From assembly GCA_002238905.1 (NCBI GenBank), contig MPNG01000009.1, positions 1 through 51,694 on the forward strand: a DNA stretch of 51,694 bases. Direction: 5' to 3'. Positions 20,215 through 51,243 of the stretch are shown in pieces. The DNA is from Alphaproteobacteria bacterium bin98. GTDB taxonomy: Bacteria > Pseudomonadota > Alphaproteobacteria > Bin98. How positions within the stretch are numbered: the first letter of the stretch is position 1; each line of letters opens with the position of its first letter. The translations under genes were made by a program, and so were the position numbers. The notes beneath the pieces are model-generated. The model did not search any database, had not been told where the DNA came from, and worked only from the letters and a program-made list of their open reading frames with translations.

Positions 20215-20635
20215 TAAAAAGAAAGTTGCACGAGAATGAGCTAATGCTTTGGACCTATGAAAAGATTTTGTTTCAAATAAGGAATAGTGTGGCAAGGTAA
20301 AGCGAACCATCCTGAAAACTTTTTCCTCAAACAAAGGAATGAGAGGTGCAATCGTCAAATATCTGTGAGTTTTGATGTGAAGGTATCCTATAAATTTGTT
20401 CCTGGCATGCCAATGAGATATCACAGATCCCATAGGGAGAGATTTTGTAGAAACTTTTAAATAAATCTCCAGAATTGTATTTTGATCGTTAATGATTGCC
20501 TGTGATCGTAATTGATTTTTTGATCGAATGAAGATATTATGGGTTTAGTGCTATAAAATATCAGTTTTTCTATATTTCAAACAAAAAATCTGTTCAAAAG
20601 ATTGTTAAAATCGTATGTTTTTAAGAGAGTATGCA
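20215..20635. other. Intergenic region
   Basis: About 20430-20530 repeats in diverged form the region upstream of 6542 (TGTAGAAAC, CCAGAATTGTA, TTAATxATTGCCTGT). No gene seen. Confidence 0.45.
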
Positions 20636-26196: not shown

Positions 26197-26665
26197 ATAT
26201 TTTACATACATACTTATTGCTTTGTTGTTAGTTTCTTGTGTGAAAAACAGCAAAAATAAACCTGAAGCAGTTGTTTCTACTAAGCACGTTGTGCATCCTT
26301 TAAACCGCGCAGAAATTGTTATGCACACAGAGTCTAACCGAGGTGTTCCTTTGGTTTTGCAGTGGGTGTTTGTTGATGGAGAAAAAGCGCGCAAAGCTGT
26401 GAGTGCTCTTACAGCGTCACAGTTTTTACAATCTGAAGAAGCTCTGAAGCGTGAATTTCCACGATCTATTCGTGTGAGAAAGCACACTATGATGCCGGGA
26501 GAGACAGATATTTTGGGATTTAAAGTTAGGCCTATAGAAGACCATATTTTTCTGTATGCGCATTTTCTTGAAAAAGGAGTGAATCGATGGGTTGTGCTTC
26601 CCAGAGCGCGTGTGCGCGTCAATATCTACAGTAATACGTTGAAAATTCAAACGCGTGAACCTTAA
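26186..26665 (+). CDS. Lipoprotein, TssJ-like
   Basis: 159 residues from ATG 26186, overlapping the end of the upstream gene. Signal sequence with lipobox LVSC (Cys18). The mature part reads like a small beta-sandwich with the TssJ/SciN layout: PLVLQWVFVDG, a helix with ASQFLQSEEAL, RKHTMMPGETDILGFKV, FLYAHFLEKGVNRWVVLPRA and a last strand. TssJ is the outer-membrane lipoprotein of the T6SS membrane complex (IglE is a counterpart in Francisella). Next to a DUF4280 protein this is suggestive, but sequence identity in TssJ is low and I could not test it. The 3' end is copied, in decayed form, next to both downstream ruvX copies. Confidence 0.6.
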   Translation: MFFKYFTYILIALLLVSCVKNSKNKPEAVVSTKHVVHPLNRAEIVMHTESNRGVPLVLQWVFVDGEKARKAVSALTASQFLQSEEALKREFPRSIRVRKHTMMPGETDILGFKVRPIEDHIFLYAHFLEKGVNRWVVLPRARVRVNIYSNTLKIQTREP

Positions 26666-26772
26666 GAAAACGTGATTTTTCTCAATCAGCTGTTAAAATT
26701 GGTCTTGCTGACACGTTGTCTTCTATTTGTTTGTGTTGACGTGTTTCCCATCCTTTCTGCTCATGGTTCTTG
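26666..26772 (-). pseudogene. ruvX: Relic of the ruvX 3' end (junction copy a)
   Basis: The sequence CTGTTAAAATTGGTCTTGCT and on to CCATCCTTTCTGCTCATGG follows the 3' end of intact ruvX (31314 onward), with many substitutions and indels. Only the last 30 or so codons survive. It directly abuts the 3' end of the TssJ-like gene, which is probably the ancestral convergent arrangement. Confidence 0.75.
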
Positions 26773-27125: not shown

Positions 27126-27941
27126 ATGCAATATTTATTGTTAATAACGCTACCACTTATTTTATTTGGAAATGATCCGAGAAGTTTTGAAAAAATGATT
27201 CGAGAGAGTCCAGAATTTTGTGATTTTATGCATGCGCCCAATAATGAAATAAGATACTCTATGTGTCAGAAAAAGATGAATCTGATATTGTCAAAAGCAT
27301 CAGAATCTTGCAAAGATTCTGAAATATATAAGCTGTTTTGTGTGCTACGGGAAGAAATTTACAAGCTAAGGTTATTTTTCCAATATCTGTATAATGTGCC
27401 ATATAATCTTTCAGAATCTGAAGATGTTTATGTGCTCTCTCACTCTTCCATATGGAAAAAAACAGGCGATGATTTTTCCTTTGCAGGATGGATCAGAAAT
27501 GAGTTCGATAATGTTGAAAATCTTTATTGTGTTGCGAGAGTTTATCGTGATAATGATTTATTGGATATTGCAGTTCTTCCATACGATTATTTAATGAAAA
27601 GTCAGCAGGCATGCTTTGATATGTTCACAAGATTCACTGATGCAATAAAAGAGTGCAAAGAATCTGACCAAAGTATAAAAAAAATGCAATCTTGTTTATA
27701 CCTGGGCATTCTGTCTTTTTGTTTTTCAGAAAATCAAAAGTCGTCTGTTGAGCAAGCATGGTTGCGTCGTATGAGTCCGTATGAATCTAGTGGTTTAAAA
27801 AAGAAGTCTATGCCAAAATCATCTCTTTGTGAGCCTTTACCTAATGTGTGCGTGCCTAAACGAAAGGTATCAATTGTTCCAGGTATGCGGCGCTTTTTTA
27901 AACACAGATTGAGATCTGTCTTTTTGTGTTGTATCCAATAA
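27126..27941 (+). CDS. Family-1 secreted protein, one domain
   Basis: 271 residues from ATG of MQYLLLITLPLILFGN (the in-frame start at 27078 precedes the signal peptide). Domain at about 35-225: MCQKKMNLILSKASESC, LREEIYKLRLFFQYLYNV, IWKKTGDDF, LYCVARVYR, LLDIAVLPYDYL, LSFCFSENQKS. A basic C-terminal tail (about 235-271) follows. It is a close relative of the gene at 14107. Its last 200 bases are duplicated in decayed form just downstream. It stands between junction copies a and b of ruvX. Function unknown. Confidence 0.9.
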   Translation: MQYLLLITLPLILFGNDPRSFEKMIRESPEFCDFMHAPNNEIRYSMCQKKMNLILSKASESCKDSEIYKLFCVLREEIYKLRLFFQYLYNVPYNLSESEDVYVLSHSSIWKKTGDDFSFAGWIRNEFDNVENLYCVARVYRDNDLLDIAVLPYDYLMKSQQACFDMFTRFTDAIKECKESDQSIKKMQSCLYLGILSFCFSENQKSSVEQAWLRRMSPYESSGLKKKSMPKSSLCEPLPNVCVPKRKVSIVPGMRRFFKHRLRSVFLCCIQ

Positions 27942-28120: not shown

Positions 28121-28253
28121 AGAGTGGATGGAATTTTGTGATGATTAGTAATTGTATATAATCTAGTGTGTGTAACAATAATGATGTTGCGCTACTTTCA
28201 TAATCAGTCAAAAATGAAATAATCTTCTCTCAAGGTGATGGGTTGCCCTTTTC

Positions 28254-28840
28254 TTGAGAGTGCTGTGTGGCGTGGGATCGGACTTCTTTTCTTAGCAAAT
28301 ACTTAACAAACGCGCGCGCCTTAAGTAAAAAGTGCGCCTTCTAAATAAGTTGTTAAAATGAGGCTTGCTGCTACTTTATCTTCTATCTGCTTGCGCTTAG
28401 CAAAGGTTTTTCCATCCTTTTTGCTCATGGTGTCTGCGATTTTGGATGTGAAGCGCTCGTCCATAAGTAAGATGGGAAGAGCATATTCTGAAAAGATGAA
28501 TTCAGCAAACCGCCTGACGGGTTCGCATTGGGTACCTTCTTCACCGTTAAAGTTGAGGGGCCAGCCTATAATAAAGCCAATGGGAGTACGTTTTTCTAGA
28601 TGATGCTGTCATCGTTTCATAATTTTTTTATGGCCAGAATTTTGAATTGCGCATAAAGGGCTTGCGATAATTTGTTGTGTGTCTGATATAGCAACGCCTA
28701 CAACGCTTTGACTGTAATCCAGAGACACAATGTTCCCTTGATTGTTTACAGATATTACGAAAACAAGATGTATCTTTTGTGATCATGCGTTTTTCAAATC
28801 GTATTGTACTTCGTGCCGTAAGCGATAGATGGCGGCTATA
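28254..28840. repeat. Segmental duplication of the ruvX junction (copy b of 31249-31832)
   Basis: Starts at TTGAGAGTGCTGTGTGG, includes the former 3' end of the TssJ-like gene (AACAAACGCGCG...CTTAAG), all of ruvX and the last 55 or so bases of the symporter gene (encoding AIYRLRHEVQYDLKNA), then breaks off abruptly into a family-2 pseudogene. Similarity to the functional copy is high, so this copy is younger than the relic at 26666. Confidence 0.9.
28321..28786 (-). pseudogene. ruvX: ruvX pseudogene
   Basis: 466 bases against 465 in the intact gene: one extra base near 28753 (CAGATATTACG versus CAGATTTACG) shifts the frame shortly after the start, and a CGA-TGA change near 28611 adds a stop. 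Otherwise nearly identical to 31314-31778. Confidence 0.92.
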
Positions 28841-29319
28841 CTAATATCGTGATTCCGTGTTGACGTGAAGAATAATATCTTTTTTGCGCATCATGCCATG
28901 CGCTATACGCCATCTGAGCGAAGCCCTGATTTCCCTTAAAGCAATGTTGGCAAGCTAATATGAGAAATTCTTTCGGCGCACCTGGATCTAAAGTAACTTG
29001 TAGACTTGCACTTGTTCCCACATTTTGCGTTATGGAAGCAAAAGCAGTGTGTAAAATGCGTATATTAAGGACGATTGCTTCATGCAGATCAATTGGATCA
29101 ACTGCTGGACCAGTTGTAGTTAGGTTTTCTTGAGGGTTTTTTATTCGAATAAGTTGCCCAAGGCTAAACGCTATGTTTGCGGCTTCATCAGGAGTATACT
29201 CGTTATATTTTTTTTGGAGATGGCTTGTAACATGACCTTGTTACAGGATTAAAATCATCAGGCATGACAGTCGTGCCATTTGCGTAGAAACATAATAAAA
29301 ATAATAATATAAATTTCAT
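28836..29319 (-). pseudogene. Family-2 secreted protein, frameshifted
   Basis: Begins with MKFILLFLLCFYANGTTVMP at 29319 and is interrupted near 29230-29260, where the frame shifts. The rest reads KKYNEYTPDEAANIA, an AFASITQ segment, LDPGAPKEFLILACQHCF and MAYSAWHDAQKRYY, matching the intact relatives at 29618 and 30493. The last codons run into the duplicated symporter tail, so its natural 3' end was lost at the junction. Confidence 0.85.
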
Positions 29320-29430
29320 AATATATCCTTTAGGTAGGTTATTTTTGCATATGTGATATGCATATTTAATACGTGAAGGAGATTTTTCTGCTCATATTTG
29401 GCAAAAAAAGAATGGTTTCTTGCAGTTAAT

Positions 29431-29467
29431 AAAAAAATGAGCCCCAAATTACAACTTCGTGCTCATT
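29431..29467 (-). terminator. Terminator-like hairpin of a family-2 relic
   Basis: ATGAGC/GCTCAT stem with a T-tract on the - strand; the inner stem is broken by substitutions compared with the perfect version at 30475-30511. Confidence 0.5.
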
Positions 29468-29479
29468 AATGAGAGTGTT

Positions 29480-29617
29480 AAGCTCTCCTCGTCTTGTATA
29501 GATAGTCTTGTTGAGCAGAATGCCACAGTTTATACGATGACGCAGCGGACGCCAGTCTTCCCGGATTAGGATATGAATCTAAAGTAACAATGTTGTCATC
29601 CGATTTTGCATTTTGCG
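29480..29617 (-). pseudogene. Relic of a family-2 gene
   Basis: Contains the codons for the C-terminal LWHSA-like block (GAGCAGAATGCCACAGTTTA) and a displaced LDS/ITQ segment (GAATCTAAAGTAAC, TTTTGCGTTATGGAAGCGA), with a deletion joining them. It is fused to the 3' end of the gene at 29618. Confidence 0.65.
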
Positions 29618-30088
29618 TTATGGAAGCGAATATTCTTGTTCAGCAGAATGCCACAGTTTATACGATGACTCAGCGTCCGCCAGTATTCTCGCACTAAGAT
29701 GAGGGTGAAATAAATGTTGACATGATAATATGAGTTGTTCCTTCGGCGCACATGGATCTAAAGTAATGTTTTCATCCGCTGTCACACTTTGCGTGATGGA
29801 AGAAAAAGCAGTACGTAAAACGTGTAGATCAAGCGGAGATCCGTTTTGCGAATCAACTGTTCGAGCGTTAAGACCAAAAGAGAATGGTTCGACTGATTTG
29901 TCGGCAAGTCGAAGAAGTGCGCAAATATGAGATGCTATGCTTGATGCTTCATCGTTAGTATACTCGTGATATTTTTTTGCGTGGAGTTGTTGTCTAATAA
30001 ATTCCGTTTTTTCAGGGTCACAATCAGTAGGCATGACAGTCGCGCCATTTGCGTAGAAACATAATAAAAATAATAATATAAATTTCAT
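29618..30088 (-). CDS. Family-2 secreted protein
   Basis: 156 residues from ATG 30088 (signal peptide MKFILLFLLCFYANGA); the frame extends to 30163 but those residues precede the signal. An AAGGATATATT leader gives a good ribosome-binding site. Landmarks: KKYHEYTNDEASSIASHI (helix), LDLHVLRTAFSSITQS, LDPCAPKEQLILSCQHLF, and an SSYKLWHSAEQEY end. The last few codons come from recombination with the adjacent relic. I do not recognise the family. The YTNDEASS, LDPxAPK and LWH blocks define it. Likely exported small helical protein; function unknown. Confidence 0.85.
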   Translation of the reverse strand: MKFILLFLLCFYANGATVMPTDCDPEKTEFIRQQLHAKKYHEYTNDEASSIASHICALLRLADKSVEPFSFGLNARTVDSQNGSPLDLHVLRTAFSSITQSVTADENITLDPCAPKEQLILSCQHLFHPHLSARILADAESSYKLWHSAEQEYSLP

Positions 30089-30492
30089 AATATATCCTTT
30101 AGACAAGCTATTTTTGCATATGTGATATGCATATTCAATACGTGAAGGAGATTGTTCACTCAATTGCTTGAGATGAAGTGATTACTTAGGTTCCAATCAT
30201 ATTTGGCAAAAAAGCATGATTTCTTGGATTATACGATTCTACTGATCCTTATACTTTACAATAAGATATGGCTATAAATTCAAATGGGGAGAGTATAAAG
30301 GTGTGATAGGCATAGTGTTTCTTTCACTAAATATCTAGCGAAGTGATTACTGCTAGACAAAGCAAAAGTTAATCATAAGTTTCAGTTTTCGATTGTAATA
30401 AAGAAGATCCCATGCAATGTAGAAAAGGAGCATAAATATTATGCAAATGATTGATAGATGAATGATCTTGTAATAAAAAAATGAGCACAAAA
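30089..30492. other. Intergenic region upstream of a family-2 gene
   Basis: The 120 bases next to 30088 (GTGATATGCATATTCAATACG, GTGATTACTTAGGTTCCAATC, ATATTTGGCAAAAAAGCATG) recur at 31010-31130 and partly at 29340-29425, so the family-2 upstream region is conserved. Its far end holds the terminator of the next gene. Confidence 0.5.
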
Positions 30493-30511
30493 TTACAATT
30501 TTGTGCTCATT
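30475..30511 (-). terminator. Rho-independent terminator overlapping a coding end
   Basis: Perfect 15-base-pair stem (AATGAGCACAAAATT and complement) around 2 bases, then seven T's on the - strand. Its 5' arm encodes the last codons (MSTKL) of the family-2 gene at 30493. Confidence 0.9.
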
Positions 30512-30984
30512 ATGGGGCAATAGTCTTGTTGCTCACGATGCCACATGTTATACGCTGCCCCAGCTTGCACATAGCTTGCCTCTCCCTCAAATAAATATTG
30601 GCAAGCTAATATGAGTTTTGATTTCGGCGCCCATGGATCTAAAGTAATTTTCTCATCCGCTTTCGCACTTTGCCGTATGGAAGAAAAAGCACTCTGGAAA
30701 AGGCGTAGATCTAGCCGAGATTCGCTTTCCGGATCAATTTCTGGAGCTTCCTGATGATCACGTCGTAATGATTCCATTGAGATGCCGGTAAGTCGAACAA
30801 GTTTGTAAATGTGAGATGCTATGCTTGATGCTTCATCATTAGTATACTCGTAATACTGTTTTGCTAAGAGTAGTTGCCTAAGATCCTTCGTTTCTTCCGG
30901 TGTGAAATCAGAAGGCATCAAAGTCGCGTTAAAAGTCGCGCCATTTGCGTATAAACATAATAAAAATAACAATATAAATTGCAT
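30493..30984 (-). CDS. Family-2 secreted protein
   Basis: 163 residues from ATG 30984 (MQFILLFLLCLYANGA), with AAGGATATATT as leader. Same landmarks as the gene at 29618: KQYYEYTNDEASSIASHI, LDLRLFQSAFSSIRQS, LDPWAPKSKLILACQYLF, AAYNMWHREQQDY. It has a Glu/Asp-rich insertion (about 90-105) and is the best-preserved member, with its own terminator overlapping the 3' coding end. Predicted Sec export; function unknown. Confidence 0.88.
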   Translation of the reverse strand: MQFILLFLLCLYANGATFNATLMPSDFTPEETKDLRQLLLAKQYYEYTNDEASSIASHIYKLVRLTGISMESLRRDHQEAPEIDPESESRLDLRLFQSAFSSIRQSAKADEKITLDPWAPKSKLILACQYLFEGEASYVQAGAAYNMWHREQQDYCPIMSTKL

Positions 30985-31313
30985 AATATATCCTTCAGAT
31001 AGGTTATTCTTGCATATGTGATATGAATATTCAATGCGTGAAGGAGACTTTTTTCACTCCATTACTTGAGGAAGTGATTACTTACTTCCAATCATATTTG
31101 GCAAGAAATCATGCTTTCTTGAATTATACGTAACCTCACTCTCGGAGCACTCTTTTGCCATCGTCACTCCTTTCACCCTGCATTGATTGCTGATGCCATG
31201 AGCAATACTCTTGATGAGCGTATCTCTTATTTTCATCAAGGCCTTTTATTGAGAGTGCTGTGTGGTGTGGGAATCGAATTTTTCTTAGAAAATACTTAAC
31301 AAACGCGCGACCC
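30985..31313. other. Intergenic region before ruvX
   Basis: Conserved family-2 upstream block (31010-31130), then unique sequence, then from 31249 the start of the duplicated ruvX junction, including a decayed 3' end of the TssJ-like gene (about 31290-31316). No separate gene. Confidence 0.5.
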
Positions 31314-31778
31314 TTAAGTGAAAAGTGAGCCTTCTAAATAAGTTGTTAAAATGAGGCTTGCCGCTACTTTATCTTCTATATGCTTGCGCTTGGCAAAGGT
31401 TTTTCCATCCTTTTTGCTCATGGTGTCTGCAATTTTGGATGTGAAACGCTCGTCCATAAGTAAGATGGGAAGAGCATATTCTGCAAGGATGAATTCAGCA
31501 AACCGCCTGACGGGTTCGCATTGGGCTCCTTCTTCACCGTTAAAGTTAAGGGGCCAACCGATAATAAAGCCAATGGGAGTACGTTTTTCTAGATGATGTT
31601 GTAATCGTGCACTAATTTTTTTATGGCCAGAATTCTGAATTGCGCATAAAGGGCTCGCAATAATTTGCTGTGTGTCTGATATAGCAACACCCACAACGCT
31701 TTGACTGTAATCCAGAGACACAATGTTCCCTTGATTATTTACAGATTTACGAAAATAAGATGTATCTTTTGTGATCAT
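31314..31778 (-). CDS. ruvX: Putative pre-16S rRNA nuclease (YqgF/RuvX)
   Basis: 154 residues, RNase-H fold. Motifs: IVSLDYSQSVVGVAISD (Asp23), GWPLNFNGEEGAQCEPVRRF (family: GxPxxxxGxxg), MDERFTS and DKVAASLILTTYLE at the end. The protein processes the 5' end of 16S rRNA. A 17-residue N-terminal extension precedes the usual start, but ATG 31778 overlaps the symporter stop (ATGA), so coupling supports it. This is the only intact copy; dead copies lie at 28321 and 26666. Confidence 0.93.
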   Translation of the reverse strand: MITKDTSYFRKSVNNQGNIVSLDYSQSVVGVAISDTQQIIASPLCAIQNSGHKKISARLQHHLEKRTPIGFIIGWPLNFNGEEGAQCEPVRRFAEFILAEYALPILLMDERFTSKIADTMSKKDGKTFAKRKHIEDKVAASLILTTYLEGSLFT

Positions 31779-33112
31779 GCGTTTTTTAAATCGTATTGTA
31801 CTTCGTGCCGTAAGCGATAGATGGCGGCTATATGAATATACAGCAACAAACCACCTGCCAAACTTGTAATTGCAAAGGCATATTCTGCTTTAAAAAACGA
31901 GAAAAAGAAGAATGATAGCGCGGCAATCACAAAGAATATTTTCTTGCCATTTTTTGGAGCTAAGAACTCTGCTGTTGGAAGACCGCTTAAAAGGTAAGAA
32001 ATAATCGTAGAGTACCCCAAAATAAAGATCATGAATGGCATAAAATACTCCATGTATGGAAAGTGCAGGCTGAGGGCGTTTTGGACAAGAAGGGCGCTGT
32101 CTGCGTTTGTTTTCCAAACACCCGTAATGAGCACTAATACCATGGTGGTAGAACAAATGAGTATAGTGTCTAAGAAGATAGACATTAAGGCTAGACTCGC
32201 TTGCTGCGCTGGTTTTGTTGATTGCGTTTCAATGTGAATCAAGGAGTTGTAGCCAACACCAATATCGCCAGAAAAAGCAGCTGCAGATGCACCTCGCGAT
32301 AACGCGATTAACATAGTCGCGCCGGCAAAACCTGTGGCGGCAGCGTGGCCATTCCAAGCTGAGTAAAAGATTGTTTTGAGGAGAGGGAGGATTTGGTCGC
32401 TGCATTGAGTTAAAATGTAGGCGGTCATTCCTAAGTATAAGACTACAAAAATGGGCAAAATCACTGTATTGATACGACCAACACGCTCAATGCCTCCGCG
32501 AATAGCATAAAAAATGCTTATAATCATGGTTAACGCAAAGATGGTTGGGTTGACATGAAAGTTTGATACAAAAGAATCTTTGATAATGTTGAAAGAGTAA
32601 AATTCAATGCTGTATATCGCCATTAAAAGCGCTGTAATATATGGAAGTGCTTTAAATTTAGGAAAAGCTTTTGCCACAAAATACATTGATCCACCCATAA
32701 ATTTTTTGTTTTCCTTATCCAAAAAACGGTGTGTGAGCGCCAAGTACACTTCTGAGTATTTGAGAATCATGCCGATAAAGGCCACAACCCATACCCAAAA
32801 CAGAGCGCCCGGACCACCTATTTGAGCTGCCATTGCGACGGTGGCAAGGTTGCCGATGCCAACACAGCCACCAAGAGAAGTGAAGAAAATGTGTAGTGGC
32901 CTTGTTCCGATCCCATCAGTTTTTGGTTGTCTCAATGACTCTTTAAACAGACGAAATATATGTTTGATTTGAGTGATTTGAAACCAGTTAGCTTTGTGAG
33001 AAAGAAGAGTGCCTAGAGAAAGTATGCAAAATAGTGCGCCGTACCCCCATAGATACTCTGCGCCAAAATTGTCAATTGCGAGGATGGCTCTATCTAAATA
33101 GTCTATAAACAT
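31775..33112 (-). CDS. Sodium:alanine/glycine symporter family (AGCS)
   Basis: 445 residues, about ten membrane segments. AGCS hallmarks: FFTSLGGCVGIGNLATVAMA, IGGPGALFWVWVVAFIGMI with LKYSEVYLALTHR, and GDIGVGYNSLIHIET in the middle. Predicted inner-membrane uptake of small neutral amino acids coupled to Na+. The start matches family length and is preceded by a short gap to lepA. It overlaps ruvX by four bases. The last 16 codons were copied into the duplicated segment at 28783-28840. Confidence 0.9.
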   Translation of the reverse strand: MFIDYLDRAILAIDNFGAEYLWGYGALFCILSLGTLLSHKANWFQITQIKHIFRLFKESLRQPKTDGIGTRPLHIFFTSLGGCVGIGNLATVAMAAQIGGPGALFWVWVVAFIGMILKYSEVYLALTHRFLDKENKKFMGGSMYFVAKAFPKFKALPYITALLMAIYSIEFYSFNIIKDSFVSNFHVNPTIFALTMIISIFYAIRGGIERVGRINTVILPIFVVLYLGMTAYILTQCSDQILPLLKTIFYSAWNGHAAATGFAGATMLIALSRGASAAAFSGDIGVGYNSLIHIETQSTKPAQQASLALMSIFLDTILICSTTMVLVLITGVWKTNADSALLVQNALSLHFPYMEYFMPFMIFILGYSTIISYLLSGLPTAEFLAPKNGKKIFFVIAALSFFFFSFFKAEYAFAITSLAGGLLLYIHIAAIYRLRHEVQYDLKNA

Positions 33113-37373: not shown

Positions 37374-37436
37374 ATTTAATCCTCTATCTATATAGGATAC
37401 CATGTTATGAATATGTTTGTAGGGACATGGTGAGAA

Positions 37437-37829
37437 ATGATTGTTGGTGTGGGCTGTGATGTCGTAGATATACGCCGCATAGAAAAAATTTGGAATCGAT
37501 ATAAGTATGTATTTGTGGAGCGTTATTTCATAGGGGAAGAAGTTCAACGTGCGCATTCTATGCGCGCGCCGAGTGTGCCTGCATTTTTAGCAAGCCGCTT
37601 TGCTGCAAAAGAAGCGTTTGTGAAAGCTATAGGGTCAGGTTTTTCCAATGGTATTGTCCCTAAAAACATTGAGGTTTGCTCGCACAAAACAGGAGAGCCT
37701 TACTTGCGACTTCATGGTGCCGCTTTGCGCCTTTTGCAGGTAAAAAATGCAAAAACTTATGTGACGATCTCTCATGAAAAAGAGTACGCAATGTCTTTTG
37801 TCGTGCTAGATTTGTTTGTTGAAAAGTGA
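37437..37829 (+). CDS. acpS: Holo-[acyl-carrier-protein] synthase
   Basis: 130 residues. Metal-binding Asp8 (GVGCDVVDI) and Glu59 (FAAKEAFVKAIGSG) are present, with TISHEKEYAM near the end. It transfers 4'-phosphopantetheine to ACP. It is divergent from pheT with 63 bases between the starts. In alphaproteobacteria acpS usually directly precedes lepB; here 2.9 kb of inserted genes and junction copies separate them. Confidence 0.96.
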   Translation: MIVGVGCDVVDIRRIEKIWNRYKYVFVERYFIGEEVQRAHSMRAPSVPAFLASRFAAKEAFVKAIGSGFSNGIVPKNIEVCSHKTGEPYLRLHGAALRLLQVKNAKTYVTISHEKEYAMSFVVLDLFVEK

Positions 37830-37935
37830 TGCTTTGGACGAATGATTGCTTTGTAAAAAAAAAGAGATTGAAAAAAATCGTAGTTGCGTGAGCGAATTTG
37901 GATCATTGTGAGTGTAGTTGCCGCGTACGCCTTTG
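37830..37935 (+). pseudogene. lepB: Relic of the lepB 5' end (junction copy a)
   Basis: ACGAATGATTGCTTTGTAAA, AAATCGTAGTTGCGTGAGC and TGGATCATTGTGAGTGTAGT align with the first 100 bases of lepB (40759 onward), with frameshifts. It shows where lepB once followed acpS directly. Confidence 0.85.
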
Positions 37936-38118
37936 TGTAAATGTTCTGTTGGGTGCGCCAGTGCAATAGTGTGATCAGAATGCATATATAAATGTGTGAA
38001 TTGTGTGGATAACGTTGATTTTTTAAGTGTTGTGATCAGCGAGAATATTTTTTCATGCAAAGGATATTTCTTGATGTTGTAAAAAAACAATACAGTAATT
38101 CGAAAAAAAGAGTGTGAA

Positions 38119-38637
38119 ATGAAATATTTATTATTAATAATGTTGCCAGTTGTTTTGTTTGGATCTATGAGCCAAGAGAGTGAGGAAGCTGAAGGAAAAC
38201 GCAAGATATGTCGGGGCAAGGTGAGCGCAATGCTTTTACAATCATCAAGTGATGCTTCACCGCACGAGCGATTTTCTAAACTGATGCAAGTATCTCAAGA
38301 GATAGAGGATTTCTTTCGCACAGAGTTTGATATACACGATGACTATAGTATACATTTAAGGGTTGTCAGTTGGTTTAAAAGCGGGGGCGATTGCTCTTAT
38401 CACTGCAAGCTGTTCAAAAGTTTGCGCACAAATAGTAATCTGCGCTCTGATGAGGACATAGTTAACTTTTCAGTAGAATTCACGTATTTTCATGAGATTA
38501 TCAAGCAATGGGATAAAATTTATGCCGCATTTAAGAGTGAAATGCGTGCAGATTTATGGCGTATGCATACAATAAACATGCGTTTTGTATTCGCCGCTAT
38601 GTTTCCTCATTTTGCAAACAGAGTATGCTATACATGA
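38119..38637 (+). CDS. Family-1 secreted protein, subgroup B-like
   Basis: 172 residues beginning MKYLLLIMLPVVLFGS after an AAAAAGAGTGTGAA leader. Landmarks: ICRGKVSAMLLQSSS, MQVSQEIEDFFRTEFDIHDD, then a shortened central region without WKKT (VVSWFKSGGD), VEFTYFHEIIKQWDKI replacing the VMPY block, and MRFVFAAMFPHFANR at the end. It is intermediate between subgroup B and the standard domain. It sits between acpS/lepB junction copies a and b. Function unknown. Confidence 0.87.
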   Translation: MKYLLLIMLPVVLFGSMSQESEEAEGKRKICRGKVSAMLLQSSSDASPHERFSKLMQVSQEIEDFFRTEFDIHDDYSIHLRVVSWFKSGGDCSYHCKLFKSLRTNSNLRSDEDIVNFSVEFTYFHEIIKQWDKIYAAFKSEMRADLWRMHTINMRFVFAAMFPHFANRVCYT

Positions 38638-38757
38638 TTTGCAAAAAAATTGTGTGTTGCACGAAAAAAAATATAATCTCGCGCAGACCAAAACTGTTTT
38701 AATGAATCAGAGCGGATCAGATCTTTGATTCCAGTGTATGGCGAGAGATAATGTGAG

Positions 38758-39399
38758 GTGAAACATTTATTTTTACTAATATTGCCAGTGATTTTATTTG
38801 GAGCAGAAAGGCAAGAAATCTTGAAATTCAGGCAAGATATCATCGAAGAAGGATATCGTGTAAGACGTGAGGCTATAAATAATAAGAGAAAGGAGATGCA
38901 AGCGATTTTTGTGTGTAAGAACGAGTTATATTGGACACTAAGAGATGTCTTGAACAATGCATTAAAAAAACCATCTTCTGACTATAAAAAAAATAAACGT
39001 ATGAACAAGTTGCTCTCATCTGTGCGCAGTTTGTATAATCTCAAGGAAGCTGATTATGTTCAGGTAGATTTTGTCTCTGGTTTTGACGATATAGACGATG
39101 CAGCCTTTGTTTATGATCTTTTTAAATTTAATGGTGACCTCAATCACTTGCCTCCCTGTGCTCAACCATGGTCTTTTTTGATACGCTTTGAAATAACATC
39201 ACAGTATCACAAACTACTTAGAAGTAACTTGGAAGAAATATTGAAATTTTTTAAAGATTGCGAAAATATGATTATGCAAGAGACAAAATATATGCTAGAA
39301 GCAAGCCTTGTGTTGTACTATTCTGAGTCCGAATCAAAGAGGAGATTTCCAATCCCCCAGATCTCAAGAGGAATAGCAATGCACTGTAATGCACTGTGA
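38758..39399 (+). CDS. Family-1 secreted protein, GTG start, diverged
   Basis: 213 residues from GTG 38758, at the exact place where relatives have ATG (reads VKHLFLLILPVILFGA). No ATG upstream fits. The mature part is basic and diverged: MQAIFVCKNELYWTLRDVLN, MNKLLSSVRSLYNLKEADY (matching FFRxLYxI), a VYDLFKFNG strand and a helix-rich end. WKKT and FPYF are absent, VMPY is only hinted at by CAQPWSF. It is followed by a 180-base block that recurs before lepB. Function unknown. Confidence 0.8.
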   Translation: MKHLFLLILPVILFGAERQEILKFRQDIIEEGYRVRREAINNKRKEMQAIFVCKNELYWTLRDVLNNALKKPSSDYKKNKRMNKLLSSVRSLYNLKEADYVQVDFVSGFDDIDDAAFVYDLFKFNGDLNHLPPCAQPWSFLIRFEITSQYHKLLRSNLEEILKFFKDCENMIMQETKYMLEASLVLYYSESESKRRFPIPQISRGIAMHCNAL

Positions 39400-39590
39400 A
39401 TGTTAGTGTGTATTTGCATAGAAAATGATATAAAAACACGTGTTCGAATACGAGCGTAAAGAGGAGGTTGCAAAAGAGATAGGTAGGTTGTGCGCAGATG
39501 TGAGGAGATCGTTTACGCTTGTGGAGATGAGATGAAGAGTACGCAATGTCTTTATGTTGTGTTAGATTCGTGTGGCAAAAATTGACCCTT
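39398..39590 (+). repeat. Repeat block also present at 40577-40745
   Basis: AATGTTAGTGTGTATTTGCA, a GAGGAGGTTGCAAAAGAGA-like stretch and GCTTGTGGAGATGAG recur at 40577-40745 with moderate divergence. Both copies run into the acpS 3' end/lepB 5' start. Confidence 0.75.
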
Positions 39591-39700
39591 TAGATGGATG
39601 ACTGCTTTATTAAAAGCGGTCAAAGTGAGAGCAGAGAGCAAAAAATCATGAAATCATGGTTAGGAAATCTGATTTGATGATTGATTGAGAACAAGAAAAG
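39530..39700 (+). pseudogene. Relic of the acpS 3' end plus lepB 5' end (junction copy b)
   Basis: AAGAGTACGCAATGTCTTTA and TGTTAGATTCGTGTGG match the end of acpS. ATGGATGACTGCTTTATTAA, AAATCATGGTTAGGAAATCT and GATTTGATGATTG match the start of lepB. Both genes are out of frame. This is the oldest-looking of the three copies. Confidence 0.82.
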
Positions 39701-39732
39701 ATATACGTTTGATAAGTAAAAGAGGGAAAGAT

Positions 39733-40350
39733 ATGACATTAATACTATTGTTTTTAATTTGTTTTCGCGCTCATGGAGCTAGCCTAGACGCAATCCGTGA
39801 TGAGACAGAATTAAGCCAGGCTGAAATCGCAAGGCTGCAGGAGCTAGGATCTCTATCAAATTTCGAACAAGCCATGCATGCTTCTTGTCAAGCTACATAT
39901 GCTTGTTGTGAGAAAGTAGATGCATTTACCCTCATTCAAAATGTGAAGTCTCTCTTAATCTCGGAGAAATTTTTGCTTATGGACACTGTTCAGGAATTAA
40001 TAGATTTTGTACAACCAATAAAGAAGAAGTTTCTAGCATACCACAAAGAAAAATATCCTGAAGTAAGTGATGAAAGAATGAGAGCGCAAGTTGAGAATAT
40101 GCTAAGTCCTAAATTCCATATTAATCCAGAACTCTTCATGCATGCTCTTGTTTTTGTTGATCAAAGATATCTTATTGATGCCAACAATGTTTTGAAACCG
40201 AATAATTCAAATGATTTGCAAGAAAAATATGTGTCCGCTTACCGTTATATTCTATACTCTTGCTACTATTTCTACGTCTGTGAGAATAATAAAGTAGCCA
40301 ATCAGGTTTATGAGGTCTGGCGTACCCTGCCCTTTTTCCAAAAGGATTGA
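39733..40350 (+). CDS. Diverged family-2 secreted protein
   Basis: 205 residues from ATG 39733 (MTLILLFLICFRAHGA), with GAGGGAAAG as ribosome-binding site; the longer frame from 39685 precedes the signal peptide. The signal peptide and the C-terminal YILYSCYYFYVCENNKVANQ then YEVWRTL correspond to the LILACQYLF...MWH block of family 2. The middle is longer and contains HKEKYPEVSDERMRAQVENM. On the + strand, unlike the other family-2 genes. Function unknown. Confidence 0.78.
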   Translation: MTLILLFLICFRAHGASLDAIRDETELSQAEIARLQELGSLSNFEQAMHASCQATYACCEKVDAFTLIQNVKSLLISEKFLLMDTVQELIDFVQPIKKKFLAYHKEKYPEVSDERMRAQVENMLSPKFHINPELFMHALVFVDQRYLIDANNVLKPNNSNDLQEKYVSAYRYILYSCYYFYVCENNKVANQVYEVWRTLPFFQKD

Positions 40351-40480
40351 ATGCAAAATTAGAGAAGCTTGCGATAGTGTACAAGAAGCATTCAGAGGTG
40401 AGTGATGAGGCAGGGCGCCTCTGAATCTGAAACCTTCAAAGAGATCCTTCCAACACTTTCATACCTACATACGATCTGCT
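40351..40480 (+). pseudogene. Relic resembling the middle of the preceding gene
   Basis: The frame reads NAKLEKLAIVYKKHSEVSDEAGR before a stop, matching FLAYHKEKYPEVSDERMR of the gene at 39733. Probably a tandem partial copy. Confidence 0.5.
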
Positions 40481-40578
40481 CAAACAATCTAAAAAAGACA
40501 GTTATATCAGGTGATTCAGGCGATATTAAAAAATCAATAGATCGTCTATTGCAGTCGCAAAAAAACAGTGAAAAATGA
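40405..40578 (+). CDS. Small ORF, doubtful
   Basis: 57 codons from ATG 40405, hydrophilic, containing SETFKEILPTLSYLHTICSN. It continues in another frame the relic that begins at 40351, so it is more likely part of a decayed family-2 gene than an independent one. No clear ribosome-binding site. Confidence 0.25.
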   Translation: MRQGASESETFKEILPTLSYLHTICSNNLKKTVISGDSGDIKKSIDRLLQSQKNSEK

Positions 40579-40761
40579 ATGTTAGTGTGTAGTCGCATAG
40601 AAAGTGATGTGAGAGCGTGCTTGAGAGTGCGAGTGTCAAGGGGGAGGCTGCAAGAAGAGAGGGCGTTATATGCCGATGTAAGCAGAGCATTTATGCTTGG
40701 AGATGAGGAAAAAAGTTTTGTCGTGCTAGATTCGTTTGTTAAAAAATGATACTTTGAATGG
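40577..40761 (+). repeat. Junction copy c: repeat block and acpS 3' remnant before lepB
   Basis: 40577-40745 is the partner of 39398-39590. Then TTTTGTCGTGCTAGATTCG at 40717 is a remnant of the acpS 3' end, leading directly into lepB as in the ancestral arrangement. Confidence 0.85.
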
Positions 40762-41523
40762 ATGATGACATTATTTAAAAGAAAGAAAAAAGATCGCAAA
40801 AAGTCGTGGTTGCGTGAGCTGATTTGGACTATTGTGATTGTGGTTGCCGCTCGTGCTTTTCTGTTAGAACCTTTTACAATCCCTTCAGGGTCTATGATGC
40901 CCAATTTATTGATAGGTGATTACTTGTTTGTTAACAAGTGGCGCTATGGTTGGTGCAAACACTCATTTGTCTTTAGTCTTCCTTTGCTTCCAGGGCGTGT
41001 ATTTGGCTCAGCTCCTGTTGCAGGTGATACCGTAGTGTTTCGTTTGCCATCTGATTTAAATGTGCACTATGTAAAAAGACTGATTGGCGTACCTGGTGAT
41101 CGTGTGCAAGTGAAAGATGGTATCGTTTTCCTTAATGGAAAACCTCTAAAGCAAAAAGAAGTGGAAAGCTATAATATACGTAGTGCTGTTGGATATGATA
41201 AGCCTGCGAGAGCGTTTATTGAAGAGCTTCCTAATGGAAAGTCTTATAAAATTCTTCGCGCTGATTACGGAAAAGATACACGTGCAAACAACACTGAAGA
41301 GTTTGTTGTGCCAGAAGGACACTACTTCTTTTTGGGCGACAACCGTGATAATTCTGCAGATAGTCGATTTTCTTTAGGATTTGTGAGTGAAGAGTTGATT
41401 GTAGGAACGCCATTCTTAGTCTTTTTGTCAGTGAATGAAAGCATTTTGGACTTGCTTAAGGTAAGTGAGTGGTCAAAAAACGTACGACTTGAGCGCTTTT
41501 TCTCTTTTGTGGGAGATATATAA
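40762..41523 (+). CDS. lepB: Signal peptidase I
   Basis: 253 residues. One N-terminal membrane segment (about 19-36), catalytic Ser44 in PSGSMMP, catalytic Lys105 in HYVKRLIGVPGD, and FFLGDNRDNSADSRF. It removes Sec signal peptides, and so presumably matures the many family-1 and family-2 exports in this window. It starts at ATG 40762, the second of two candidate Met codons being at 40765. rnc follows after a 3-base gap. Confidence 0.97.
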   Translation: MMTLFKRKKKDRKKSWLRELIWTIVIVVAARAFLLEPFTIPSGSMMPNLLIGDYLFVNKWRYGWCKHSFVFSLPLLPGRVFGSAPVAGDTVVFRLPSDLNVHYVKRLIGVPGDRVQVKDGIVFLNGKPLKQKEVESYNIRSAVGYDKPARAFIEELPNGKSYKILRADYGKDTRANNTEEFVVPEGHYFFLGDNRDNSADSRFSLGFVSEELIVGTPFLVFLSVNESILDLLKVSEWSKNVRLERFFSFVGDI

Positions 41524-41526
41524 AGA

Positions 41527-46715: not shown

Positions 46716-46823
46716 CAATATGACGAAGAATTATGTGTGACAAGCGGAAAGAGGTTCGATGATCACCGAAGAAAATTTGAAATTTTTAAAGATGTAAGCA
46801 CTGATGATGTTGTAGAGAGTGGC
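46716..46823 (+). repeat. Flank of dnaG duplicated at 51137-51243
   Basis: GCAATATGACGAAGAATTAT, CGATGATCACCGAAGAAAAT and AAGCACTGATGATGTTGTAG recur after the dnaG relic with few differences. A short frame starting ATGATCACCGAAGAA is present in both and stops after 12 codons; perhaps the lost start of a gene that once followed dnaG. Confidence 0.85.
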
Positions 46824-47110
46824 CTATTCTTTTTTTTCAGATTTTGGCCATATTCAATAGCTGACGATATTATTTTGTGCGCGCTGTTATAGGTTGCACC
46901 TGCACCAATAGTTAGGTGACCAACTTCCGAGTTACCTTGTAATCCTTCCAGCAAACTTACTGCCGCACCTGATGCGTTAAGTTGCACATGTTTGTGTTGA
47001 GAAAGTGAACTGACAAAAGGGGCTGTTTCCAGAGTGATGGCGCTTTCTTGTCCAGATTGTGGAACGCTCCATTCGTCTGAAGTGCACAGCAATAGTCTTG
47101 GATTTTATTG
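46800..47110 (-). pseudogene. gpmI: N-terminal fragment of phosphoglycerate mutase (GpmI type)
   Basis: The - strand reads LCTSDEWSVPQSGQESAIT..., then NASGAAVSLLEGLQGNSEVG and HLTIGAGATYN. This is the N-terminal region of cofactor-independent phosphoglycerate mutase (family: ASGxAVGLPxGQMGNSEVGH with the catalytic Ser). It breaks off after about 100 codons near 46810 and has no proper start, so it is a dead fragment. The functional gene should lie elsewhere. Confidence 0.82.
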
Positions 47111-47238: not shown

Positions 47239-47847
47239 ATGAAATACTTATGTTTAATAATGTTGCCGGTTATTTTATTTGGATCAGCCGATTTATTGCT
47301 ACCGCTTGAAGAAAGTTGGACGCCTCCTGCTGCATATAAAATTTGTCAGACAATGTCGGATCAGCTAAGATTAGAATTATTAAAACCTGATGCACAGCAA
47401 GAACAGGGTGTGATAAAAGCAAAATTTAACGCGTTGCTGTTATTCATGCAAGGTATACCTGGGATACAGGAGAATACCTTCTTTTGTGCGGAGTGTGTTG
47501 CTGTAGTCTATAAAACAAAAGTCTATGAAATAAAAAAGAATGTATTGCAATATGTATTGCAAAATGCGCCCTATTCTGAACTCATCTGTAATGCTGCAAA
47601 CCTTTTTGCTGTATGTAGGATTCTTCAATGTACGCTTGGTGGAGGCTATGTGAAGAGCTTGGCTATACTGCCATACAACGATTACCTGGCAATTACTGCA
47701 ACATCACTTGCGCTCAAAGAAGTTTTAAAAGATGAATGTCTTCACCCACATATTAATACTTTTTTTGTAGCAGGATCTATGTTGTGTTATGGTAATGAAG
47801 AATTAAAATATATTCAAAAATGGAATGATTATTTAGAATATAAGTGA
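47239..47847 (+). CDS. Family-1 short secreted protein, sister of the gene at 10379
   Basis: 202 residues beginning MKYLCLIMLPVILFGS with a normal ATG. It pairs with the gene at 10379: PPAAYKICQTMSDQLRLELLKP, LLLFMQGIPGIQE, VAVVYKTK, ILQCTLGGGYVKSLAILPYNDYLAI in two parts (the VMPY block), INTFFVAGSMLCY and a closing WNDYLE. It shows what the other gene looked like before losing its ATG. The 3' flank and terminator are also shared. Function unknown; predicted exported. Confidence 0.88.
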   Translation: MKYLCLIMLPVILFGSADLLLPLEESWTPPAAYKICQTMSDQLRLELLKPDAQQEQGVIKAKFNALLLFMQGIPGIQENTFFCAECVAVVYKTKVYEIKKNVLQYVLQNAPYSELICNAANLFAVCRILQCTLGGGYVKSLAILPYNDYLAITATSLALKEVLKDECLHPHINTFFVAGSMLCYGNEELKYIQKWNDYLEYK

Positions 47848-48439
47848 AAACTGATGATAAACGACAAGGTTGGATGCAATGGTACGCATGGAGCAGTGGT
47901 TCACAGATCATTATCAATCTACGTAAAGAGAGTCCATTATTGGAGAAGCAGTGATATTAGCTGCTCTGTTGAGTTTCAATTAGTGGTGAAAAAAGGAGGA
48001 AAAAATCCTCCTTTTTTATTACTCTCGTCCATGTTTAATATGTGTGGCTTTTTCATGCAATAAAGTTTGGCAATATCTTTTTCTTTTTTTCTCAAAAAAT
48101 ACAAAATCTAATAGTGTAAGTGTGAAAAATATGTGATCTGACAGTGTGAGTACTCTTTGAAAAATAATACGGTTATTTTAATCATAAAATAGCATTCTGA
48201 AGTAGTTTGGAGATGTTGTTCATCTCTTGAATACTTACATGGCATCGTTCCATGTGTAATTTTGAGATGTTGTCTGTGCTGGGCAATATCATTTACACTG
48301 AGATTGAGAAACTTCTACAGTTTGTATGAGTGCAATAAATCACTGAAGGAATGTTGGTATCATGTTTAGGGGGGCAGGATGTTATGATCAAAACAACAAA
48401 AGGTGTTGGAGAAAATGTTTGCTTTTGATATAATATGAA
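47848..48439. other. Intergenic region with terminator and shared blocks
   Basis: Contains terminator copy 3. After it, 48100-48210 resembles 24980-25090 (AAATCTAATA, GTGTGAG, GGTTATTTTAATCATA). No gene. Confidence 0.5.
47989..48017. terminator. Rho-independent terminator (copy 3 of 3)
   Basis: AAAAAAGGAGGA, five A's as loop, TCCTCCTTTTTT. Perfect stem, T-tract on both strands; followed by CGTCCATGTTT as at the other two copies. Confidence 0.9.
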
Positions 48440-48979
48440 ATGAAATATTTATTATTAATCATGCTCCCAGTGATTTTATTAGGTGCTATGAGCAAAGAGG
48501 TGGCAGAGCCTTCTATGAGTGGCCCTGAAGAAAAAGGGAGGCGTGTGATGCCAGTAATATTATCAAAATTTGAAGCAGCTTACATGAAGGGTAAACTTTC
48601 TTTACTCCAAAAAGCAACTGAGGATGTAATGGATTTCTTCCGAGAGAATTATAGGATAGAAAAGGGATTTCTGCGTTTAACGATTAACCCTTTTTTGTGG
48701 AAAAAAGCTGACGGTGTCTGGGAGACTCTCTCAGATTCAGAACCTTCTGATACACAAGGTTTTCATGAGTGTCATCTGCTCAACCTTGATCGAGACAGTA
48801 AACATTGGATGCTTAGGTTTTTCGTACGACAAGAGTGTTTTCGTGAAATTGATGAAAAATGTCAGATGATTCAAGCAAAATTTTCGTCTAGGAGCGATTT
48901 GGATATAAAGTATAGTTTTTTGTTGTCCTCCTTTTTTAGTGCTTGTTTTTCGAGAGATGTAGAGATAATAACTCGGTAA
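48440..48979 (+). CDS. Family-1 secreted protein, subgroup B
   Basis: 179 residues beginning MKYLLLIMLPVILLGA. Very close to the genes at 49244 and 50085 and similar to 13366: GRRVMPVILSKFEAA, FLRLTINPFLWKKADGVWE, DSEPSDTQGFHECHLL, WMLRFFVRQECFREI and FLLSSFFSACFSRDVEI. The conserved blocks thus include a retained WKKA and the FFVRQECF strand in place of VMPY. Followed by a copy of the conserved intergenic element. Function unknown. Confidence 0.9.
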   Translation: MKYLLLIMLPVILLGAMSKEVAEPSMSGPEEKGRRVMPVILSKFEAAYMKGKLSLLQKATEDVMDFFRENYRIEKGFLRLTINPFLWKKADGVWETLSDSEPSDTQGFHECHLLNLDRDSKHWMLRFFVRQECFREIDEKCQMIQAKFSSRSDLDIKYSFLLSSFFSACFSRDVEIITR

Positions 48980-49230
48980 GCAGTTAAAATCTTTGATTCT
49001 GAAGGCATAAATTCCTCTTGCATCCAAGAAATATACAGGATAAGCTAATTTTTGCGATATTGATTACAATTAAAAGTGATAGTGCAAAATGATTCTAGAT
49101 ATATCCAGTCCTAAGGTATGATTTTTGTAACTACTGCAAAGGTGGGAGTTTTGATCTCCTGCATATCAAGCAAAAAAGTAAGTCGCAAGAAGAGTAAATC
49201 TCAAGATTGACAATAGTATGTTTTTTAACG
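48980..49230. repeat. Conserved intergenic element (copy 2 of 4, longest)
   Basis: Starts GCAGTTAAAATCTTTGATTC, includes TATACAGGATAAG, CCAGTCCTAAGGTATGAT, ACTACTGCAAAGGTGGGAG and GATCTCCTGCA. The GGAG/CTCC arms can pair. Ends just before the leader of the gene at 49244. Confidence 0.85.
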
Positions 49231-49243
49231 AGGGTAAGATGAA

Positions 49244-49903
49244 ATGAAATGTTTATTATTAATAATGCTTCCAGTGATTTTATTGGGAGGTATGAGCAAA
49301 GAGGTGGAGGATACTTCTACATGTGTATATGTGAGAGTTTCAAAAATACTTAAGAGATGTTGTGACAAGTTGAGCGCAATGCTATCGAGTGATAGCCCTG
49401 AAGCAAGAGGGAGGCGTGTGATGCCATTAATATTATCACAATTTAATGAAGCGTGTATGACTTGTAAATCTTCTTTACTCAAAGACGCAGTTCTGGAGGT
49501 AACTGATTTCTGCCGAGAGGAATATGCTATAGAAGAGAGATTTATGAGTTTAGAGATTAGCCATTATTTGTGGAAAAAAGCTAACGGTGGCTGGGAAGCT
49601 CTGTCAGACTCAGAATCTTCTGATCCACAAGCTTTTCGTATGTGTACTCTGACCAACGCTGATCCACCAATCCAACATTGGGTGCTTATATTTTTCGTAC
49701 GACAAGAGTGTTTTCGTAAAGTGGAGGGAAAATATGAGATGATTCAACAAAAATTTTTAGATTACATAAATGATGGTCACATTTCTGGGGCAAAACTAAA
49801 GAATAGTTTTTTGTTGTCCTCCTTTTTTACTCTTTGTTCTGCGAGATCCTCCTTTTTTACTCTTTTTTTTGCGAGAGATATAGAGATCATAACTCAGTTA
49901 TAG
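49244..49903 (+). CDS. Family-1 secreted protein, subgroup B with insertion
   Basis: 219 residues from ATG of MKCLLLIMLPVILLGG. Compared with its neighbours it carries an N-terminal insertion (about 25-45, VSKILKRCCDKLSAMLSS, which looks like an extra first helix) and a 30-base duplication at the 3' end (SSFFTLCSAR/SSFFTLFFAR). Otherwise the same order of blocks: GRRVMPLILSQF, LWKKANGGWE, DSESSDPQAF, WVLIFFVRQECFRKV, ARDIEIITQL. Function unknown. Confidence 0.9.
   Translation: MKCLLLIMLPVILLGGMSKEVEDTSTCVYVRVSKILKRCCDKLSAMLSSDSPEARGRRVMPLILSQFNEACMTCKSSLLKDAVLEVTDFCREEYAIEERFMSLEISHYLWKKANGGWEALSDSESSDPQAFRMCTLTNADPPIQHWVLIFFVRQECFRKVEGKYEMIQQKFLDYINDGHISGAKLKNSFLLSSFFTLCSARSSFFTLFFARDIEIITQL
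49817..49876 (+). repeat. In-frame 30-base duplication
   Basis: TCCTCCTTTTTTACTCTTT... repeated once (49817-49846 and 49847-49876), with two base differences. It encodes a second SSFFTL stretch. Confidence 0.9.
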
Positions 49904-50065
49904 CAGTGAAAATCTTTGATTCTGAAGGTGTATGAAAATTCTTCACGATTTTAGATATATCCAGTCCTAGGGTATGATTTTTGTAACTACTGCAAAGGTG
50001 GGAGTTTTGATCTCCTGCAGATCAAGCAAAAAAGTAAGTCTCAAGATTGACAATAATGTGTTTTT
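49904..50065. repeat. Conserved intergenic element (copy 3 of 4)
   Basis: Nearly identical to copy 2 from CCAGTCCTAGGGTATGAT through the GATCTCCTGCAGATCAAGC stretch, with about 80 bases missing in between. Confidence 0.85.
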
Positions 50066-50084
50066 AAACGAGGAGAAGATGGAA

Positions 50085-50633
50085 ATGAAATGTTTATTAT
50101 TCATAATGCTCCCAGTGATTTTATTAGGTGCTATGAGCAAAGAGGAGGCAGAGCCTTCTGTGAGTGGCCCTGAAGTAAAAGGGAGGCGTGTGATGCCATT
50201 AGTATTATCAAAATTTAATGAAGCTTACGAGACTCGTAACTCTTATTTACTCAAAGAAGCAGTTCTGGAGGTAATTGATTTTTGCCAAGAAGAATATAAT
50301 ATAGAAGAGAGATTTATGAGTTTAGAGATTCGCCCTTATGTGTGGAAAAAAGCTGACGGTGGCTGGGAAGTTCTGTCAGACTCAGAATCTTCTGATACAC
50401 AAGGTTTGCGTGCGTGTACTCTGATTAACGCTGATCCAGCAGTCGAACATTGGGTGCTTAGGTTTTTCGTACGACAAGAGTGTTTTCGTGAAATTGAGAA
50501 AAAGTGTGAGAGAATTCAACAAAAATTTAAGTGTCGTCGCGATTTGCAAAAAAACGTAAAGGCTAGTTTTTTGTTGTCCTCATTCTTTAGTCTTTGTTCT
50601 GCGAGAGATATAGAGATCACAACTCAGTTATAG
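50085..50633 (+). CDS. Family-1 secreted protein, subgroup B
   Basis: 182 residues if starting at ATG 50085 (MKCLLFIMLPVILLGA), which lies at a good distance from a GAGGAG box at about 50070. ATG 50079, two codons earlier, is also possible, but 49974 is not, because it precedes the signal. Blocks: GRRVMPLVLSKFNEA, VWKKADGGWE, DSESSDTQGLRACTLI, WVLRFFVRQECFREI, FLLSSFFSLCSARDIEI. Together with 48440 and 49244 it forms a recent tandem triplet. Function unknown. Confidence 0.9.
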   Translation: MKCLLFIMLPVILLGAMSKEEAEPSVSGPEVKGRRVMPLVLSKFNEAYETRNSYLLKEAVLEVIDFCQEEYNIEERFMSLEIRPYVWKKADGGWEVLSDSESSDTQGLRACTLINADPAVEHWVLRFFVRQECFREIEKKCERIQQKFKCRRDLQKNVKASFLLSSFFSLCSARDIEITTQL

Positions 50634-50750
50634 CAGTTAAAATCTTTGATTCTGAAGGCATAAATTCCTCTTTTATCCAAGCAATATACAGGATAAGATC
50701 ATTTTTGCGATATTGATATACAATTAAAGGTGATAGTGCAAAATACGATA
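50634..50750. repeat. Conserved intergenic element (copy 4 of 4, truncated)
   Basis: Same opening as copy 2 (GCAGTTAAAATCTTTGATTC ... TATACAGGATAAG ... GATAGTGCAAAAT) but breaks off before the GGTATGAT part. Confidence 0.8.
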
Positions 50751-50789
50751 GAGTGCATTTTTGGGTTTAATAAGAAAAAGAAGGAGCTT

Positions 50790-50914
50790 TTGTTCGTGCC
50801 GGAATGTCAGAGAGAATTTAGATAATATGAACAAGACTTTTTGTATATTAATGATTTGGAGCGCTAAGGGGAATACCTTTGCCAGGTATTGTTGTAATGC
50901 CATACGAATATTGC
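50790..50914 (+). pseudogene. Fragment of a family-1 gene like the one at 14107
   Basis: GGAATGTCAGAGAGAATTTA followed by GATAATATGAACAAGACT matches 14503-14540. TTGTATATTAATGATTTGG and GGTATTGTTGTAATGCCATA match the LFCVLMLW and IAVMPY regions of that gene. Start and end are missing; the 3' side is fused directly to dnaG sequence. Confidence 0.8.
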
Positions 50915-51136
50915 CTGGATGCAAGCAAATTGGAGTAGTGTAGTGTATTGCGTGCTTATATGCAACACTATCTATAACTACGTATAAGTTTTTGCGTGTT
51001 TTATGTCGTGATTGTGATGCAAAAGATATACGATTTGTCCATAATGATACGTTTTATACATTGTACGATGTGAGCTTGGCGGTAGAAGATATCGTGCAGT
51101 ACTTATTACAGTCTGATCGCAATGATTTGAGCTAGC
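50915..51136 (+). pseudogene. dnaG: Relic of the dnaG 3' end
   Basis: From TGGATGCAAGCAAATTGGAG to CGCAATGATTTGAGCTAGCA the sequence follows 46457-46717, with a deletion of about 30 bases, frame changes and substitutions. The stop region CTAGC is preserved. Confidence 0.92.
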
Positions 51137-51243
51137 AATATGATGAAGAATTATGTGTAATAGCGGCAAGATGTTCGATGATCACCGAAGAAAATCTGAA
51201 GTTTTTAAAGATATAAGCACAGATGATGTTGTAGAATGTGGCA
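51137..51243 (+). repeat. Duplicate of the dnaG downstream flank
   Basis: Matches 46716-46823 to within a few bases and ends where the gpmI fragment begins in the other copy. Here the sequence instead leads directly to a family-1 gene. Confidence 0.88.

Follow-up and report, generated by a model that had tools for sequence, protein, structure and literature searches.

The acpS/lepB locus

The window analysed here is the 51,694-bp stretch 1-51,694 of contig MPNG01000009.1 of Alphaproteobacteria bacterium bin98. In the region 36500-42500, which was read and aligned, the acpS-3′/lepB-5′ junction was present three times (37780-37938, 39535-~39690 and 40716-40864). The array began on the left with intact acpS and closed on the right with intact lepB. 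The three junction copies framed two family-1 genes (starting at 38119 and 38758), followed by one family-2 gene (39685), in agreement with the original prediction. The features were as follows.

37437..37829, + strand: intact acpS (Pfam ACPS, 6.9e-17)
37780..37938, + strand: junction copy A, acpS 3′ end and lepB 5′ relic (78-80% to copy C, E 3e-24)
38119..38637, + strand: inserted family-1 gene (family profile, 1.5e-47)
38758..39399, + strand: inserted family-1 gene (family profile, 2e-33)
39397..39534, + strand: insert tail, first copy (common to 40576-40707)
39535..39690, + strand: junction copy B, acpS 3′ relic and lepB 5′ relic (64/80 to copy A)
39685..40350, + strand: inserted family-2 gene (family profile, 1.6e-70; the gene helped to build the profile)
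40576..40707, + strand: insert tail, second copy (73% to 39397-39535, E 2.6e-12)
40716..40864, + strand: junction copy C, acpS 3′ relic leading into intact lepB (alignment to copies A and B)
40762..41523, + strand: intact lepB (Pfam Peptidase_S26, 1.1e-45)

The three junction copies lay where they had been predicted. Copies A and C shared 108/129 ungapped identities (blastn E 3e-24), A and B 64/80 (E 3e-11), and B and C 164/227 with gaps included (E 5e-15). Local alignment scores were compared with 1000 shuffles and amounted to 75 for A and B (shuffled, 18.3+/-2.7), 53 for B and C (18.1+/-2.5) and 129 for A and C (17.9+/-2.5). The pairs were 14-45 SD above the shuffles, copy B being 21 SD above them when aligned to A and 14 SD when aligned to C. 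The prediction had staked itself on a significant alignment of 39530-39700 with the acpS-lepB boundary, and this alignment was recovered. In copy B, 39535-39616 was aligned and the lepB portion was followed to ~39690 (MKSWLGNLI versus KKSWLRELI); the score of the lepB part past 39616, taken alone against copy C, was reached by 1/2000 shuffles. The lepB 5′ relic of copy A ran from after the stop of intact acpS to ~37938.

Copies B and C also had in common a non-acpS tail of ~130 bp before the relic (39397-39534 and 40576-40707, 82% ungapped), and acpS was entered at about the same point in both. No further copy of this tail was found elsewhere in a search of the genome. Decayed acpS was rejected as its identity, the similarity not being significant (p about 0.15), and an origin as a family-1 remnant had at most weak backing (lowest p among five comparisons, 0.047).

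Relatives were found in the same class only, and a LepA search of the genome contigs led to distant species at about 60% identity or less. A comparison with genomes in which the two genes are neighbours had been proposed. Among nine other Alphaproteobacteria with a LepB match and available flanks, none of them a close relative, acpS was adjacent to lepB in seven, at a spacing of tens to about 150 bases and with rnc and era next. The order acpS, lepB, rnc, era was the same in the window. Since this order was kept and the acpS-lepB adjacency was found in 7/9 of these genomes, the inserts appear to be derived and lineage-specific.

Inserted gene families

Families 1 and 2 were without Pfam or NCBIfam match. 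Their members had N-termini resembling signal peptides, from which alone they are predicted to be exported proteins. The N-terminus of the family-1 gene 38119..38637 was MKYLLLIMLPVVLFGS, and the family-2 gene 39685..40350 has its likely start at 39733, MTLILLFLICFRAHG. AlphaFold gave a confident alpha-beta model for the former (pLDDT 85), for which no PDB match below E 0.001 was found. Donor copies of the inserts could not be identified, the sequences being too diverged.

Several other genes were encountered. Contig C50 carried, as assembled, one uninterrupted reading frame of 24,235 codons on the minus strand (7993-80700) with a signal-peptide-like start; no Pfam match was obtained in the stretches of about 4,000-5,000 residues tested near each end. 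Type VI secretion-like genes, read from ORF starts only, were present on C13 and C17; C77 had a VgrG-like gene, and the window a DUF4280 gene at 25118-25501.

The ruvX and dnaG/rpoD sites

The second site within the window had a junction made up of the 3′ end of a lipoprotein-like gene, ruvX and the 3′ end of a transporter gene. It was likewise present three times (26648-26770, 28247-28847 and 31242-31839).

26177..26665, + strand: lipoprotein-like gene, left flank of the site (ORF; no Pfam or NCBIfam family)
26648..26770, + coordinates (ruvX on the minus strand): junction copy 1 (99/131 to copy 3)
27126..27941, + strand: inserted family-1 gene (profile, 4.1e-68; nearest relative 36%, at 14107 on the same contig)
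28247..28847, − strand: junction copy 2, broken ruvX and transporter 3′ end (93% to 31242-31839)
28872..30984, − strand: three inserted family-2 genes, the first one decayed (profile matches)
31242..31839, − strand: junction copy 3 with intact ruvX, 31314-31778 (Pfam RuvX, 1.5e-31)

A dnaG/rpoD site, which had not been predicted, extended from the right end of the window to contig C43.

46447..46823, + strand: junction copy 1, dnaG 3′ end and rpoD 5′ relic (91% to C43:1667-2044)
46816..47106, − strand: filler, inverted gpmI 5′ fragment (91% to C43:9130-9421)
47239..50633, + strand: four inserted family-1 genes (profile matches)
50905..51242, + strand: junction copy 2 (80% to copy 1)
C43:1667-2044: third copy, dnaG 3′ relic ahead of intact rpoD

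The rpoD relic of copy 1 was joined to the inverted gpmI fragment (290 bp) by 8 bp, of which 7 matched, and intact gpmI was located 5.4-7.4 kb past rpoD on C43. At CGAATATT, a family-1 remnant (profile match 50666-50929) gave way to the dnaG part of copy 2. Copies 2 and 3 had the insert tail and the junction in common. On first impression gpmI was taken for a third target, wrongly: the target was dnaG/rpoD, and gpmI was the filler.

At L094:4029-9425 (minus strand), two diverged gpmI-like copies came after gpmI, of which the second lacked a Pfam match. Both had signal-peptide-like N-termini resembling that of the adjoining M23 peptidase gene, as if a tandem duplication had joined an export signal to a glycolytic enzyme. 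In the same stretch (L094:3725-4045) the rpoD 3′ end and a likely tRNA gene formed a tandem duplicate of about 160 bp (94%) without an insert.

The original prediction held that the same structure at two unrelated sites was hard to explain by chance. We agree, and at least five sites showed it. The prediction also pointed to a shared insert order, and family 1 did precede family 2 at both acpS/lepB and ruvX, but this order is rejected as evidence. Two of two is a coin toss, and further sites disagree. The argument has no weight since the strands differ, the family-2 genes at ruvX being on the minus strand, and only family 1 was present at dnaG/rpoD in the sequence read. What the sites have in common is the insertion process and not a cassette copied from site to site, because the repeat at each site was its own local junction.

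Additional sites and enrichment

Two more sites not covered by the prediction were found on other contigs. The mutS 3′ end and the start of an EamA-like gene were repeated on C43 (12901-13066 and 24479-24657), with about 11.4 kb of mostly signal-peptide-like genes between the copies. On C2, an 875-bp repeat (91%) of partial sodB, gatC and the gatA start flanked one signal-peptide gene, and the gatA start gave way, over 6 bp with 5 matching, to 60 bp of gatB (95%). This gatC/gatA site was the clearest case, in which insert and duplication boundaries coincided without an extra partial copy. The repeat was confined to the 3′ end of the left gene, beside inserted genes, at nth (C22) and atpC (C13); the nth 3′ end recurred about seven times among signal-peptide genes (C22:5347-16234, L122). 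A tandem duplicate of gatB was present on C2 without an insert (18904-21792, L121; 91%, 1.4 kb), both copies being open. An 88-bp fragment of a C103 gene (47448-47535) lay in opposite orientation beside a family-2 gene at C43:21532-21619 and is possibly another filler.

The stretches of contig read came to 680 kb of the 1.58 Mb genome, a draft assembly in 105 contigs. A duplicated flank was found at 7/10 island sites, the remaining three having no flank repeat, and in 24/749 housekeeping windows. The latter were 200-bp windows from 151 kb of housekeeping blocks, scored as positive when a direct copy occurred on the same contig no more than 30 kb away; one gatB tandem duplication accounted for 16 of the 24 positive windows and one SCO1-like pair for three. 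The enrichment (Fisher p about 1e-8, or 8e-4 when the three sites of the window are left out together with gatC/gatA, which was ascertained by its repeat) is a rough figure, as the windows were non-independent and the island sites were defined by hand.

Ungapped identities between copies were 80-84% at acpS/lepB, 88-91% at dnaG/rpoD, 80-94% at ruvX, 88% at mutS and 92% at gatC/gatA. This range suggests that the insertion events differ in age, with the reservation that part of each junction is under selection in one copy. An assembly artefact or chance similarity is hardly credible as the source of the repeats. The assembly is a draft in many contigs, and the contig of the window breaks inside repeats; however, the copies differed by 6-20% from the functional genes, with gaps, as in decayed DNA, and they were located in contig interiors with scores far above the shuffles. 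The window (1-1247) and L096 (1-1241) start with the same gene at 86% identity, and both contigs are probably broken inside a repeat.

The length of the duplications (~150 to 875 bp) was far greater than that of a transposon target duplication. A transposon-like or integrase-driven element making unusually long target duplications could explain why the same gene families were inserted again and again at several sites. Against it, duplication length varied, the insert ends differed at every site (such an element should have fixed ends and a constant short duplication), the region around the acpS/lepB inserts (36500-42500) yielded no inverted repeats, and nothing resembling a transposase gene was noticed in the inserts. 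We consider such an element highly improbable.

A model of duplicative insertion

We suggest that exported-protein genes were repeatedly and separately inserted into tightly packed housekeeping gene pairs by a duplicative, homology-poor process that copied the target junction, an explanation that we regard as fairly probable. At five sites the insert was situated between direct repeats of the host target. The mechanism was probably replication template switching. A replication fork or repair end would halt inside the downstream gene (lepB, rpoD or gatA), and the new strand would switch by short microhomology to another template, sometimes through a stray fragment (gpmI, gatB). Having copied one or more exported-protein genes, it would return to a position upstream of the halt point, within the 3′ portion of the upstream gene. 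The product would be junction, insert and junction, with 0.15-0.9 kb of the target junction copied. We infer the single step, its direction and the order of events from this anatomy.

A later insertion at the same place would duplicate the target together with the tail of the earlier insert, and would thus give three junction copies, two of them with a common tail. A second insertion is the simplest account of the tails common to B and C at acpS/lepB and to copies 2 and 3 at dnaG/rpoD.

Template switching is consistent with the fillers from other loci, namely the gpmI fragment at dnaG/rpoD and the gatB fragment at gatC/gatA. Matches of 5-8 bp were present at three borders (rpoD-gpmI, gatA-gatB and family-1 remnant-dnaG) and none were seen at the others, in sequences that have diverged. 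Taken together, fillers and microhomologies may be read as signs of template switching in old, diverged sequence. RecA was present in the genome, and no match to Ku was found in it. Against this reading, no filler was found at acpS/lepB itself, where the left border was searched locally and against the whole genome.

The coincident boundaries at gatC/gatA are as a one-step model predicts. The left-end repeats at nth and atpC, in tandem with the neighbour gene, are nevertheless explicable by plain tandem duplication, and insert-free tandem duplications of a like kind do exist (rpoD 3′/tRNA and gatB), which leaves room for duplication and insertion as two events. In that case the junction would first have undergone a short tandem duplication, creating a redundant site, and exported-protein genes would have been inserted later between the copies by any route. 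Short tandem duplication is common in the islands. However, a later insertion could be expected at any point of the duplicated region and should leave an extra partial junction beside the full one, and none was seen at the aligned sites, while the fillers were located at the duplication border itself. We consider two steps unlikely.

An identical final anatomy would be produced if a circle carrying junction and insert, released from another cell or strain by recombination between junction copies, integrated by homologous crossover at a single junction. RecA was present, and a model of this kind has been put forward for Arabidopsis genes that transposed and are flanked by repeats (PMC2869330). 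Yet the first circle would require an earlier event, which shifts the origin elsewhere, and there was no sign here of circles or DNA uptake. This origin seems to us improbable. Very improbable is a process, dedicated or strongly favoured, by which genes for exported proteins would be copied out of large islands and into the junctions of housekeeping operons, the target being duplicated; if it did exist, it would be a transposase-free route to spread and diversify host-interaction proteins.

Under duplicative insertion by template switching, inserts would survive in a spacer-free operon because both neighbour genes stay intact, one at each end. This suggests that target duplication is what allows them to persist there.

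Comparison with known systems

Transposon-free gene movement within bacterial genomes is poorly understood, and long target duplication has, to our knowledge, been reported mostly for restriction-modification genes of Helicobacter. The present genome holds at least five independent cases, apparently of different ages, all with expanding exported-protein families and some with fillers and stacking. Its decaying half-gene copies would be a record of a known, little-studied transposon-free mode of gene movement, and whether one or two steps are involved becomes testable in sister strains.

In Helicobacter pylori, insertion with long target duplication was described for restriction-modification genes (Nobusato et al. 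2000, as cited in PMC1643837 and PMC4978471). As summarised there, direct repeats of the host target likewise enclose a block of non-transposon genes, with no loss of the flanking host genes. Those cases were demonstrated by comparison of two strains, whereas ours are deduced from one genome. Compared with these accounts, the inserts here are exported-protein paralogs, insertions are stacked at one site and some borders carry fillers. In the features tested, the anatomy appears to agree with insertion with long target duplication, with cargo, stacking and fillers as probable new elements. Transposed Arabidopsis genes also have flanking direct repeats, of mostly genic target, around members of tandemly duplicating families at new sites, and the authors favour excision of a circle and its reinsertion (PMC2869330). 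Unlike in that eukaryote, the target copies here were longer, were located in operons and had unrelated fillers at some borders. Template switching, or microhomology-mediated break-induced replication, offers a further likeness in breakpoint microhomology, templated fillers from other loci and duplication around the break, features that in our case are read from old, diverged junctions only.
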